57,612 bases of DNA, taken from the NCBI GenBank assembly GCA_017477505.1, contig JAFUVQ010000056.1, positions 1 to 57,612 on the forward strand, given 5' to 3'. The translations under genes were made by a program, and so were the position numbers. This document shows positions 8,479 to 49,872 of this stretch, in pieces. The DNA is from Eubacterium sp. Lineage in GTDB: Bacteria; Bacillota; Clostridia; Lachnospirales; Lachnospiraceae. Each line of letters starts with the position of its first letter. Position 1 is the first letter of the stretch. Under the pieces are notes generated by a model. The model saw only the letters and a list, made by a program, of their open reading frames with translations, was not told where the DNA came from and searched no databases.

Positions 8479-8930
8479 AGTAGTGCGCCTAGCGGCGCAC
8501 GTTTCTAACGGGTTAAAGTCCCGAATCCGCCCGGTAGTGGGAAGGATATAGCCGAAGGCAAGGGTGTCCATCGTGAGGTGGAATCTGAAGGAAGCCGGAT
8601 GTGAGGAACATACTAACTCACGGGCAAATCTCTGGTCTGACGAACAGAAATCTCATATGAGGTCATGCATGAGGGTAAGGCTGCTGCACAAGTCGAAACC
8701 CCATAACTACACGGAATCATGCATGATAAATGAGGCAGATGGATGGAGAGGAAGAAACGTGTGGTACCTAGGGAGGTCTGTGCGAAATGCTCTGAAAGGA
8801 GTAACCACTGTACAAGGAAACGAGACGGTGCTGAACGCACAGAAGTCAGCAGAGGTCATAGTAGCCGAGAGGCGAAGGACCGAATCAGTAGGAGTCTTAA
8901 GTATGACCGAGAAAGGAGGAATGACCATTT

Positions 8931-10325: not shown

Positions 10326-10326
10326 A

Positions 10327-10396
10327 AGCGCCGTATACCGAACGGTACGTACGGTGCTGTGAGAGGACGGCGGCTAGTCACCGCCTCCTACTCGAT
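10327..10396 (+). ncRNA. Group II intron domains V and VI
   Basis: Bases 10327-10358 fold as domain V: AGCGCCGTAT pairs with GTACGGTGCT, with the conserved AGC triad at the start. Domain VI (about 10362-10396) has a GGCGG/CCGCC stem and an unpaired A at 10390 as likely branch point. These are the ribozyme's catalytic core and lariat site. Confidence 0.75.
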
Positions 10397-10397
10397 T

Positions 10398-11390
10398 GAC
10401 GGGCATGCCGTCAGTCTGTGGTGAAAGTCCACAAGGGCGTAGTTGCCGACGAACCCTATAGCGACTCCCAAGGTTTATACTGCGAGGTGTGGGCGCGAAG
10501 AAGGGATAGCGAAATCGTAGCCTGACGAACAGAAACCTGATATTAAGGCGCTTGCGGTGGATAAGCTGGCTAGTGGCAGTGAAGTCCTAAAGGCAACCGT
10601 AACCCGTAGAAGTAAATCAGGCAGGTAGACGAGGAAAGACTGGCAGGCTTATCCCGCGAGGTCTCACAGGCGGTTCCATTAGCCGTAGTAACAACGAACT
10701 GTGAGAAGTCAGCAGAGGCCGTAGTAGGCATGGCTCTGAAATGGGCTTTGCCAAAGGGCTGAACAATGTAACCGTGTAATCAAATGTATGCTCCATGGAA
10801 TACCTGACAGCGAAAAGGGCGAAACGTAAATGAGCAGATACCGCACAACTTAGGGCGAATCCATGGAAACGGAAAGGAGAGAACACACAAAGCAATGTCA
10901 GAACTGTTGGAAAAGATACTGTCCAAAGGCAACATGAACTCCGCCTATAAAAGAGTCTGTGCCAATAAAGGAGCAGGCGGAGTAGACGACGTGACAGTTG
11001 AACAACTCGGAGATTACATCAGAGAAAACTGGAACGGTATCAGGGAACAAATCAGGCACAGAGAGTACAAGCCCCAGCCAGTCAGGAGGGTAGAAATACC
11101 AAAACCACACGGCGGAGTGAGAAAACTCGGAATCCCGACCGTAATGGACAGGGTAATTCAGCAGGGCATCGTGCAAGTGATAAGCCCAATGTGTGAGCCG
11201 CTGTTTTCGGAATGGAGCTACGGTTTCAGACCAAACAGAAGCTGCGAAATGGCAATCAGACAACTACTGATATATCTGAATGAGGGCTATGAGTGGATAG
11301 TGGATATCGACTTAGAGAAATTCTTCGATAACGTACCGCAGGACAGGCTGATGAGCCTTGATCACGACATCATCAATGATGGCGATATGG
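10398..11390 (+). mobile_element. Second group II intron, truncated at both ends
   Basis: Starting right after the first intron, the sequence has typical group II intron domain I-IV features (a GACGG/CCGTC hairpin at 10398-10412, GTGGTGAAAGTCCAC, CTGACGAACAGAAACC) and an RT gene. No GTGCG 5' end is found, and the RT gene breaks off near 11390 with no domain V or VI. It is an inactive relic, different in sequence from the first intron. Confidence 0.65.
10895..11390 (+). pseudogene. Truncated group II intron reverse transcriptase
   Basis: The frame encodes the RT N-terminus: YKRVCANKGAGGVDDV, VRRVEIPKPHGGVRKLGIPT, WSYGFRPNRSCEMAI, IDLEKFFDNVPQDRLMSL and DHDIINDGDME. Intact relatives continue through the YADD active site and maturase domain. 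Here the similarity stops after about 165 residues, near 11390, and the frame runs on as unrelated sequence until 11467. The next part on the DNA is an integrase C-terminus in another frame, so a deletion fused the two genes. Confidence 0.75.
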
Positions 11391-18658: not shown

Positions 18659-18766
18659 CTCTCTTATTCAGAGTGGTGGAGTCACAAGGGACGATGAAGC
18701 CACGGCAACCCCCAAACGGAAGGTGCCTTCCTGAGCGTAAGTTTTTACTTGCGAGCAATAAGAGGA
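18659..18766 (+). ncRNA. SAM-I (S-box) riboswitch aptamer
   Basis: The P1 helix CTCTTAT (18661-18667) pairs with ATAAGAG (18758-18764). Inside are the conserved S-box segments: CAGAGTGGTGGAG, the kink-turn GATGAAGCCACGGCAACC and an AAGGTGCC/GAGCGTAA region. S-adenosylmethionine binding stabilises P1 and allows the downstream terminator to form. GGATTTG (18764-18770) can instead pair with CAAATCC (18787-18793) as antiterminator, which uses the left arm of the terminator. It therefore turns off metK and the following gene when SAM is abundant. Confidence 0.92.
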
Positions 18767-46974: not shown

Positions 46975-48588
46975 ATGGCAACAGTTGATTTAACCAAGTA
47001 TGGCATCACAGGAACTACTGAGATTGTCTACAATCCTTCATATGAAATGCTTTTCGATGAAGAGATGAAACCTGAACTTACAGGTTATGACAAGGGAGTT
47101 AATACAGAGCTTGACGCTGTAAATGTAATGACAGGTATATATACAGGCCGTTCTCCTAAAGATAAGTTCATCGTTATGGATGAAAATTCAAAGGATACAG
47201 TTTGGTGGACATCTGAAGAGTATCCAAACGACAACCATGTAGCTACTCAGGAAGCATGGGCAGCAGTTAAGGAAATCGCACAGAAGGCTCTTTCAAACAA
47301 GAGACTTTTTGTAGTTGATGCATTCTGCGGAGCAAACAAGGATTCACGTATGGCAGTACGTTTCATCGTGGAAGTTGCTTGGCAGGCACATTTCATAAAG
47401 AACATGTTCATCCAGCCAACAGCTGAGGAACTTGAAACATTTGAGCCTGATTTTGTTGTTTACAACGCATCAAAGGCTAAGGTTGAGAACTACAAGGAAC
47501 TCGGTCTTAATTCTGAGACAGCAGTAGTATTCAATATCACAAGCCGTGAGCAGGTTATCATCAATACATGGTACGGCGGAGAGATGAAGAAGGGTATGTT
47601 CTCAATGATGAACTACTACCTCCCACTTAAGGGTATGGCTTCAATGCACTGCTCAGCCAACACAGATATGGAAGGTAAGAACACAGCAATCTTCTTCGGC
47701 CTTTCAGGAACAGGTAAGACGACACTTTCTACAGATCCTAAGCGTCTTCTCATCGGTGATGATGAGCACGGCTGGGATGACAACGGTGTCTTCAACTTCG
47801 AAGGCGGATGCTATGCCAAGGTTATCAACCTTGATAAGGATTCAGAGCCTGATATCTACAATGCTATCAGAAGAGATGCTCTTCTTGAAAATGTAACTGT
47901 AGATGAAGCAGGAAAGATTGATTTCGCTGACAAGAGCGTTACAGAGAATACTCGTGTATCATATCCTATCGAGCATATCGACAAGATAGCTAAGAAAGTA
48001 AACGGAATATCAGCAGGTCCTGACGCTAAGGATGTTATCTTCCTTTCAGCTGATGCATTCGGCGTACTTCCTCCTGTATCAATCCTTACACCAGAGCAGA
48101 CAAAGTATTACTTCCTTTCAGGATTCACAGCTAAGCTTGCAGGTACAGAGCGTGGTATCACAGAGCCTACACCTACATTCTCAGCTTGCTTCGGTCAGGC
48201 ATTCCTTGAGCTTCATCCTACAAAGTATGCAGAAGAGCTTGTTAAGAAGATGGAGAAGGTTGGCGCTAAGGCTTACCTTGTAAATACAGGCTGGAACGGA
48301 ACAGGAAAGCGTATCACAATCAAGGATACCCGTGGAATCATCGATGCAATCCTTAACGGTGACATCAACAAGGCTCCTACAAAGACAATCCCTGTATTTA
48401 ACTTCGAAGTTCCTACAGAACTTCCTGGAGTAGACACAGGAATCCTTGATCCTAGAGATACATATGCAGATGCTTCAGAGTGGGATGCTAAGGCAGCTGA
48501 CCTTGCAGCAAGATTTGTTAAGAACTTCAAGAAGTATGAGACAAATGAGGCAGGTAAGGCGCTTGTAGCAGCAGGTCCTGAGGCTTAG
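46975..48588 (+). CDS. pckA: Phosphoenolpyruvate carboxykinase (ATP)
   Basis: The 537-residue enzyme interconverts oxaloacetate + ATP and PEP + CO2 + ADP. The P-loop [11 protein letters not shown], the metal/substrate motifs [20 protein letters not shown] and [18 protein letters not shown]-type R-S-P-K-D-K near residue 60 and the [10 protein letters not shown] motif are present. In rumen/gut anaerobes it often fixes CO2 in the direction of oxaloacetate. AGAAATGAGG lies upstream. Confidence 0.96.
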
Positions 48589-48967
48589 GCGTGAGGAGGG
48601 GCCCACGAAGTGGGAAGAGCCCTCATGCTCCGAGCGAAGCGAGGATGCGCTACGCGAAGCGGAGCATAGACCTGCGAAGCAGGGATATCATATGTGCGGA
48701 GCACATATGGCACCAAAGGCGTGAGGAGGGGCCCACGAAGTGGGAAGAGCCCTCATGCTCCGAGCAAGGCGTGTATTTGCAAAGCAAATCAACGCTCCGA
48801 ACGAAGTGAGGACGCTCTGCGTGAAACGCAGAAATTCGGCAGAGCCGAATCAACACTGCGAAGCAGTGTTGGCGCAGAAGCGAGGATGCGCTACGCGAAG
48901 CGGAGCATAGACCTGCGAAGCAGGGATATCATATGTGCGGAGCACATATGGCACCAAAGGCGTGAGG
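48588..48967. repeat. Array of perfect hairpins with RRA triloops, in long direct repeats
   Basis: At least eight different perfect palindromes with a three-base loop are packed between pckA and fba: CCCAC-GAA-GTGGG (48602), CGC-GAA-GCG (48653), CCTGC-GAA-GCAGG (48671), CATATGTGC-GGA-GCACATATG (48689), ATTTGC-AAA-GCAAAT (48775), TCTGCGT-GAA-ACGCAGA (48816), ATTCGGC-AGA-GCCGAAT (48834) and AACACTGC-GAA-GCAGTGTT (48852). An outer ATGCTCCG/CGGAGCAT stem (48625-48667) encloses some. Two direct repeats occur: 48 bp at 48588-48635 = 48718-48765, and 91 bp at 48636-48726 = 48877-48967. Stems differ but loops follow purine-purine-A. Short open frames across it are not convincing. Confidence 0.88.
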
Positions 48968-49008: not shown

Positions 49009-49872
49009 ATGTTAGTATCAGCAAAAGAAATGCTTGAGAAGGCTGTAGCAGGCCATTATGCAGTTGCACAGTTCAACATTAACAACCTTGAGTGGACAAA
49101 AGAAATCCTGCTTGAGTGTGAAGAGCTTAAGAGCCCTGTTATCCTTGGTGTATCAATGGGTGCAGCCAAGTACATGACAGGTTATAAGACAGTAGTAGCA
49201 ATGGTAAGCGCTATGGTAGATTCACTTGGAATTACAGTACCTGTAGCACTTCACCTTGATCATGGTAATTATGAAGGAGCTAAGGCTTGTATCGAAGCTG
49301 GTTTCTCATCAATCATGTTCGATGGTTCATCACTTCCACTTGAAGAGAATATTGAGAAGACAAAAGAACTTATCGCTATCTGCAATGAGAAGGGAATATC
49401 TCTTGAGGCAGAAGTTGGCGGCATCGGCGGCGAGGAAGACGGCGTTGTATCAACAGGTGAATGTGCTGATCCTGAAGAATGCAAGCAGATTAATGACCTT
49501 GGCGTAACAATGCTCGCATGCGGTATCGGAAATATCCATGGTAAGTATCCTGCAAACTGGGCAGGTCTTCAGTTTAACGTACTTGAGAGCATCAAGGCAG
49601 TTACAGGTGACAGACCACTCGTACTTCACGGTGGTTCAGGTATTCCTGATGAGCAGATCAAGAAAGCTATCGACATGGGCGTTGCAAAGGTAAATGTAAA
49701 TACAGAGCTTCAGCTTGTATTTGCAGATGCAACAAGAAAGTATATCGAGGCTGGCAAGGATCTTGAAGGTAAGGGTTATGACCCACGTAAGCTTCTTGCT
49801 CCGGGTGCTAAGGCTATCAGAGACGAAGTTAAGAACAGAGTAGAAGTATTCGGTTCAGCTAACAAGGCATAA
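49009..49872 (+). CDS. fba: Class II fructose-bisphosphate aldolase
   Basis: The 287-residue zinc enzyme cleaves fructose 1,6-bisphosphate. Seen are AVAQFNINNLEW, the zinc-binding ALHLDHGNYEGAKACIEAGFSSIMFDGS, EAEVGGIGGEEDG, GNIHGKYPANWAGL and LHGGSGIPDEQIKKAI. Length and motifs are standard. GGGAGG precedes the ATG, directly after the hairpin array. Confidence 0.96.
   Translation: MLVSAKEMLEKAVAGHYAVAQFNINNLEWTKEILLECEELKSPVILGVSMGAAKYMTGYKTVVAMVSAMVDSLGITVPVALHLDHGNYEGAKACIEAGFSSIMFDGSSLPLEENIEKTKELIAICNEKGISLEAEVGGIGGEEDGVVSTGECADPEECKQINDLGVTMLACGIGNIHGKYPANWAGLQFNVLESIKAVTGDRPLVLHGGSGIPDEQIKKAIDMGVAKVNVNTELQLVFADATRKYIEAGKDLEGKGYDPRKLLAPGAKAIRDEVKNRVEVFGSANKA

Follow-up and report, generated by a model that had tools for sequence, protein, structure and literature searches.

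The array between pckA and fba in the window (the whole stretch of 57,612 nt from a Eubacterium sp. that was analyzed) is real and consists of copies of a defined element rather than of a loose collection of palindromes. Our best reading is that the element works like REP/BIME or BOX. With slightly better than even confidence, we regard it as a non-autonomous small interspersed repeat that is defined by its fold, belongs to one genus of rumen/gut Lachnospiraceae and is presumably spread as a folded strand. The evidence for this reading is a constant order of parts, compensatory change in the stems, dispersal, a relative whose pckA-fba junction is free of the element, nesting and tandem duplication. 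Such a repeat is defined by fold and loop type, not by sequence, and two insertions reveal possible landing sites. An earlier sequence-only reading of the same DNA had anticipated the kept structure, the loop preference, the dispersal and the duplication, but its further suggestion of a transposase partner did not hold as a general rule.

At least eight perfect palindromes with RRA triloops, mostly closed by C-G, had been noticed at this locus, and the hairpin search bore this out. Between 48602 and 48950 there are ten perfect hairpins with a three-base loop and a stem of 5-9 bp; their loops are GAA (6), GGA (2), AAA (1) and AGA (1), and the closing pair is C-G in nine and T-A in one. Across 456,617 bases of the same genome, comprising the window and 20 further stretches, five clusters of at least three R-N-A triloop hairpins (stem of at least 4 bp) were found, one of which falls within an ORF; shuffling every stretch once with a first-order Markov model yielded none. 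The clustering of triloop hairpins exceeds chance.

Two exact direct repeats run through the array: the 91-bp repeat reported before (48636-48726 = 48877-48967) and a second one (48587-48635 = 48717-48765), which is 49 bp rather than 48 bp long. They are the two halves of one 130-bp unit, so that the recent duplication suspected within the array is an exact 130-bp tandem repeat. The window contains two perfect units, and the second is interrupted by a whole element of a different subtype, 111 bp long. When 48766-48876 is removed from the second copy, it becomes identical to the first over 140 bp; cuts at 48760-48769 and lengths of 105-119 were tried, and this single combination fits. The insert sits between TCCGAGC and GAAGCGAGGA in H2 of unit B without any duplicated base. 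What had been described as a set of palindromes differing in stem is instead three elements with a fixed internal order (Table 1). An intrinsic terminator was considered and dropped for lack of a T run after any hairpin when 48587-48967 was read by eye.

Table 1. Features at the pckA-fba junction, in positions of the window; R1 is a covariance model spanning H2 to the closing stem.
Feature	Coordinates	Strand	Basis
pckA ORF; the array (48587-48967) starts at its stop codon	46975-48588		name from the sequence-only reading
Unit A, complete 130-bp element (H1-H2-closing stem-H3-H4-H5)	48587-48716	+	period of exact tandem repeat; R1 match 48629-48714, 99.4 bits
H1 of unit A, two-part hairpin around CCCACGAAGTGGG, directly after the pckA stop TAG	48592-48625	+	hairpin search
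H2 of unit A, TCC-GA-GC-GAA-GC-GA-GGA, triloop hairpin with tandem G.A/A.G	48629-48645	+	GC/GC and AC/GT versions covary
Closing stem, 5' strand TGC, pairs with GCA at 48710-48712	48646-48648	+	alignment covariation
H3 of unit A	48649-48665	+	alignment covariation, helix 3
H4 of unit A, inner stem CCTGCGAAGCAGG	48666-48688	+	hairpin search and alignment
H5 of unit A, CATATGTGC-GGA-GCACATATG	48689-48709	+	hairpin search and alignment
Closing stem, 3' strand GCA	48710-48712	+	alignment covariation
Unit B, 5' part, same as unit A, ends TCCGAGC in H2 stem	48717-48765	+	repeat comparison
Nested complete 111-bp element of another subtype, AAGGCGTG...TTGGCGCA, just 5' of the GAA triloop of unit B H2	48766-48876	+	R1 match 48796-48876, 80.6 bits
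Unit B, 3' part, GAAGCGAGGA..., same as unit A	48877-48957	+	R1 match 48880-48955, 63.3 bits
Start of a further unit, ten bases common with unit A; then unique sequence up to the fba ribosome-binding site	48958-48967	+	repeat comparison
fba ORF; the array stops before it	49009-49872		name from the sequence-only reading

Across copies, the element keeps the same order: a variable H1, H2 (TCCGARCGNAGYGAGGA) and a 3-bp closing stem (YRC...GYR) that encloses H3, H4 and H5. In an alignment of 44 elements, from which 20 of the 64 rows found had been excluded, 27 of the 32 pairs showed two-sided change. Two-sided cells numbered 284, compared with 85.7 in shuffles and 31-52 in slid controls. With a hand-written structure, 91.8% of the cells were paired versus 72.8% after shuffling; pairing was 26-51% when the partners were slid by 1-3 columns, and the covariation score was 0.485 versus 0.182 for shuffles. 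These values agree with the earlier proposal that structure rather than sequence is kept, through compensating change. The closing stem in this alignment is partly imposed because the seed finder demanded a pairing closing triplet. In 59 distinct rows outside the model seed, whose alignment to the model biases them in its favor, 163 of 176 closing-stem cells were Watson-Crick, 8 were G.T, 2 A.C and 3 other, and the stem occurred as TGC/GCA, CAC/GTG, CGC/GCG, CTC/GAG, AGC/GCT, CAT/ATG and other versions. H2 was found in AC/GT (40), GC/GC (27) and intermediate G.T (3) versions among 70 elements, and a single A.C version was present among the motif matches. The invariance of GA..GA and GNA in H2 at these loci is partly imposed by the retrieval pattern, which fixed both. 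Both DNA strands and the RNA folded better than shuffles (z = -4.4, -5.2 and -5.2). In minimum-energy folds of a single window unit, however, H2 pairs with H3 in place of the drawn H2, closing stem and H3, which counts against our best reading.

The loop preference extends beyond the window. Among 230 C-G-closed triloops (stems of at least 5 bp, 70 element stretches), 185 were GNA and 208 purine-N-A, a total that may include some hairpins counted twice in tandem arrays and leaves out H2, whose stem is too short. C-G-closed GNA triloops are exceptionally stable DNA mini-hairpins.

Model R1 detected 18-19 matches in the genome of the window, the 18 being at 11 places; of 41 genomes examined in the genus, 36 contained the element. 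Outside the genus, a search with fast filters gave one weak match (31 bits) in 195 other genomes of the order. The element is dispersed in its own genome and in the genus and not confined to this locus. Among the matches listed, the full unit occurs in named records that carry a Lachnospiraceae or Eubacterium label. The plasmid search gave no match to the element, and a literature search of limited depth found no description of it.

A wider spread of the H2 motif was considered and set aside. Of 117 stretches, the 80 listed include many H2-only matches from Bacteroidales, Actinobacteria and archaea, among others. By our own estimate, some 30 of the H2-only matches are due to chance, and we therefore used full-unit loci, judged by eye and labelled Lachnospiraceae/Eubacterium, together with the genomes of the genus. 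In some groups the H2 motif recurs without H3-H5 in a longer context that is common within the group, as in loci labelled Woesearchaeota and Nanoarchaeota (L101, L136, L140), in Alphaproteobacteria (L089, L105) and in Bacteroidales (L125).

We compared the pckA-fba junction between species. Measured from the stop codon, the gap is 29 bp (to ATG) in genome G009, 192 bp in G023 and 423 bp in the genome of the window, and these contain no element, one element with a different H1 and three elements, respectively; the sequence of H1 at this site varies between species. This comparison draws on the three of 30 retrieved fba loci in which pckA was shown upstream, the upstream gene of several others not being resolved by the scripts. 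Because a gap of just 29 bp separates pckA and fba in the relative devoid of the array, the array is probably co-transcribed with them.

The atpG-atpD junction could be read in eight of ten retrieved loci (L404-L413), those of G013 and G044 not being resolved; it is near-empty in some species and holds different hairpin sequences in others. Elements are present in the genome of the window and in G023, and an apparent remnant in G009. The gaps of G028 and G043 are 19-21 bp, G022 has one plain hairpin, and G027, G086 and G091 carry other hairpin-rich sequences, of which the tandem repeat of G027 occurs within that genome at this locus only. Short direct repeats are found in the atpG-atpD flanks of G023 and G009 (TTGAC; TGGCCTA). 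They could be target duplications, which counts against a strictly duplication-free mechanism. With respect to the features of DDE-type MITEs, target duplication is absent from the nested insertion in the window, and possible short duplications occur at atpG in these two genomes. In two other loci (L331 and L338, from G032 and G005), arms CGAATTGC/GCAATTCG of 8 and 7 bp surround the whole element and may be either an outer stem or a hairpin insertion.

A second, independent nested element was found in G027, where it lies in an H2 loop (TCCGAACG^AAGTGAGGA, judged against the H2 consensus); the composite was later duplicated, near-identically, with a spacing of 238 bp. Apart from the window locus and the G027 locus, the junction search in 61 genomes returned a single match, in G044, which is due to chance. 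Screening 87 matches for elements in a hairpin tip added no other clean example, so that clean nested insertions number two only; this small number counts against our best reading. A third candidate, on contig C39 of G000 (L031), misfits at one base and was not counted, and a general split-hairpin scan was swamped by shifted duplicates and chance matches.

We propose that the module of about 110-130 bases, made up of H1, H2 and the 3-bp closing stem around H3-H5 and bearing mostly GNA loops on one strand, would enter intergenic gaps as a discrete unit and afterwards duplicate in tandem. A putative trans-acting enzyme may recognize the DNA strand in its folded form, with the stable GNA mini-hairpins, and hairpin tips would be among its targets. 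If such an enzyme is found, it might prove to be a DNA mover guided by structure and distinct from the known Y1/RAYT set. Arrays within operons are probably transcribed as part of the mRNA, where by analogy their stems may alter decay as BIMEs do; an effect on mRNA, if any, would be a side effect or a later use.

The structures might instead belong to a cis-acting RNA element whose hairpins in the operon mRNA set the processing or stability of the neighbours, as the name GA-cis implies; we hold this to be possible but doubtful. The orientation of 66 arrays chosen among the matches listed was scored against ORFs of at least 80 codons and tRNA genes rather than gene-finder calls; the two weakest of the 87 R1 matches were excluded, and some of the sites are orthologous. 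Both neighbours lie on the strand of the array in 32 cases and on the other strand in 13; a further 13 arrays are flanked by divergent genes and 6 by convergent genes, and 2 lack one neighbour. The sense bias of 32:13 (p = 0.007, too small a value because orthologous sites were counted apart) suggests some role or filter at the RNA level and counts against our best reading. Of the sense arrays, 29 have an upstream ORF, and in 9 of these no more than 12 nt separate the start of H1 from the ORF end; this and the different hairpin sequences in the atpG-atpD gap of several species favor an RNA function. Against it stand the 13 arrays antisense to both neighbours, the 13 between divergent genes, the close relative without the element at pckA-fba, and the tRNA genes that adjoin 16 of the 66 arrays in either orientation. 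Since orientation is not tied to transcription (32/13/13/6), we counted it in favor of the interspersed-repeat reading. The tRNA-Arg/tRNA-His spacer holds the element in four genomes (L315, L346, L349 and L353).

The composition of the pairs bears on the same question. G.T and A.C accounted for 18 and 14 of 1319 cells in the seed alignment and for 33 and 17 of 2613 cells in the 87 matches. G.T thus makes up about 1% of the latter, whereas G.U was found in 213 of 2372 pairs (9%) in 110 tRNAs of the same loci, for which the tRNA finder gives no A.C. The low G.T share points away from ordinary RNA-level constraint. G.T nevertheless exceeds A.C by about 2:1 in the 87 matches and by 8 to 2 in the closing stem, which counts against our best reading. 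DNA-level correction of palindromes was also considered. Two-sided versus one-sided changes in close copies were 33:24 at 90% identity or above and 392:159 at 80-90%, and because the tRNA control gave a similar ratio (7:9 and 21:7, respectively), this idea was dropped and the similarity counted against our best reading; the low G.T share remains.

An enzyme-free origin, in which existing copies would give rise to arrays by slipping during replication and by switching template at hairpin tips, is unlikely in our view. It would account for the exact 130-bp tandem duplication in the window, the near-identical 238-bp one in G027, the truncated further units seen by eye at the 3' end of several arrays and the location of the junctions at hairpin tips. 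The nested pieces, however, are whole elements with their usual ends, which is beyond slippage alone, and dispersal to unrelated intergenic sites also argues against it.

The sequence-only reading had further proposed linkage to a Y1/TnpA-REP-like transposase. On this account, a Y1 (HUH) tyrosine transposase with affinity for hairpins in single-stranded DNA would move a REP/RAYT-type element. This is consistent with the nested case without target duplication, with TAG or TAAG around the start of H1 in 25 of 78 rows and with Y1 matches in 45 of the 80 genomes searched. Nevertheless, the flanks (to about 2.5 kb) of 20 Y1 genes, part of those listed, contained no element. Over 49 genomes of the genus, 20 had both, 12 the element only, 10 Y1 only and 7 neither (Fisher p = 1.0), and co-occurrence with long RAYT-like Y1, sorted by frame length, was equally absent (p = 0.76). 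The median copy number of the element was 4 with Y1 and 3.5 without (p = 0.47), and no Y1 match was obtained in G043, a genome scored as 100% complete that carries 21 copies. Arrays in G002, grouped by hand and with the origin placed from 20 samples of 12 kb, showed no preference for the lagging strand (14 leading, 6 lagging, p = 0.12), which weighs against this account and our best reading alike. G002 is the exception to the lack of linkage, as 3 of its 11 Y1 matches lie less than 5 kb from the element (at about 0.5, 2.2 and 3.7 kb), about 0.6 being expected by our own estimate, and the one at 3.7 kb is RAYT-like. One array in this genome (L314, G002:C1:351000-355200) is about 0.5 kb from a Y1 transposase match. 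Because of this neighbourhood we raised our estimate of Y1/RAYT-driven movement from remote to improbable, and as a general rule we rejected it in view of the 20 Y1 flanks without the element, the independence over 49 genomes and G043.

The interspersed-repeat reading invites comparison with known families. REPs are described (PMC3116915, PMC3733652) as palindromes of 20-40 bp, most with GTAG or CGTC tags, and REPINs as inverted doublets. Like the present element, REP/BIME/REPIN sequences are short palindromic extragenic repeats, clustered and often downstream of genes. In contrast, the unit here has 111-130 bp and five hairpins, repeats in direct tandem and, G002 excepted, shows no general link to a RAYT (Y1) gene, which would mark REP/REPIN membership. 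BOX of Streptococcus pneumoniae is described (PMC3049150) as a variable number of boxB modules flanked by boxA and boxC, with TIRs like those of ISSpn2. It is likewise a composite structured repeat with tandem modules in variable number, but whole units repeat in the present case and no IS partner is known; this comparison is one of architecture.

No Rfam family scored above gathering at the array, and sub-threshold matches to TB8Cs4H2, Cyano-1, sR14 and RAGATH-18 were weak and taken for chance. The GA-cis RNA (RF02987) resembles the element in having H1 with a CGAAG tip followed by CCGAGCGAAGCGAGG and GC..TAC, and the window element does show H1 and then a GA-flanked H2 on one strand. The GA-cis model aligned to H1-H2 of the window (48591-48658) with 21.5 bits, below the gathering score of 34.7, and to one other locus (L042) with 16.6 bits; none of ten loci matched above the cut-off, and a search of the window's genome gave no GA-cis match at E 0.1. 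The element differs from GA-cis in adding the closing stem and H3-H5 and in not always being sense to the upstream ORF. Kinship with GA-cis, not membership, is therefore probable.

GA-cis itself exceeded the cut-off in 8 of 61 genomes of the genus, with up to 74 bits, and formed head-to-tail arrays of up to four units spaced about 81-90 bp. All 14 loci (12 distinct places) lie 3' of a same-strand ORF, which speaks for the cis-acting RNA account; the downstream ORF is on the same strand in 10, on the opposite strand in 3 and missing in 1. The unit starts within 3 nt of the upstream ORF end in 4 of the 14 loci, and an SD-like GGGAGG is present in GA-cis units (L239-L253), which often also have a short ATGACGAAGTCA frame. 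In this genus a catalogued RNA family behaves as an interspersed tandem repeat, which puts its assignment in question. More tentatively, and with considerable doubt, the element and GA-cis may both belong to a single superfamily of mobile DNA that is recognized as a single strand folded into several hairpins with GNA mini-hairpin loops, and we would predict for it an integrase acting at hairpin tips without target duplication. If so, GA-cis would have been taken wrongly for a cis-regulatory RNA and would in fact be a mobile repeat.

Elsewhere in the window, group II intron domain matches form two sets (8567-8880 and 10326-10759), each with D1D4-3 and D1D4-1, and an Intron_gpII match lies at 10326-10396; the two sets suggest two introns or a tandem pair. 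A SAM riboswitch is located at 18661-18764 (71.8 bits).
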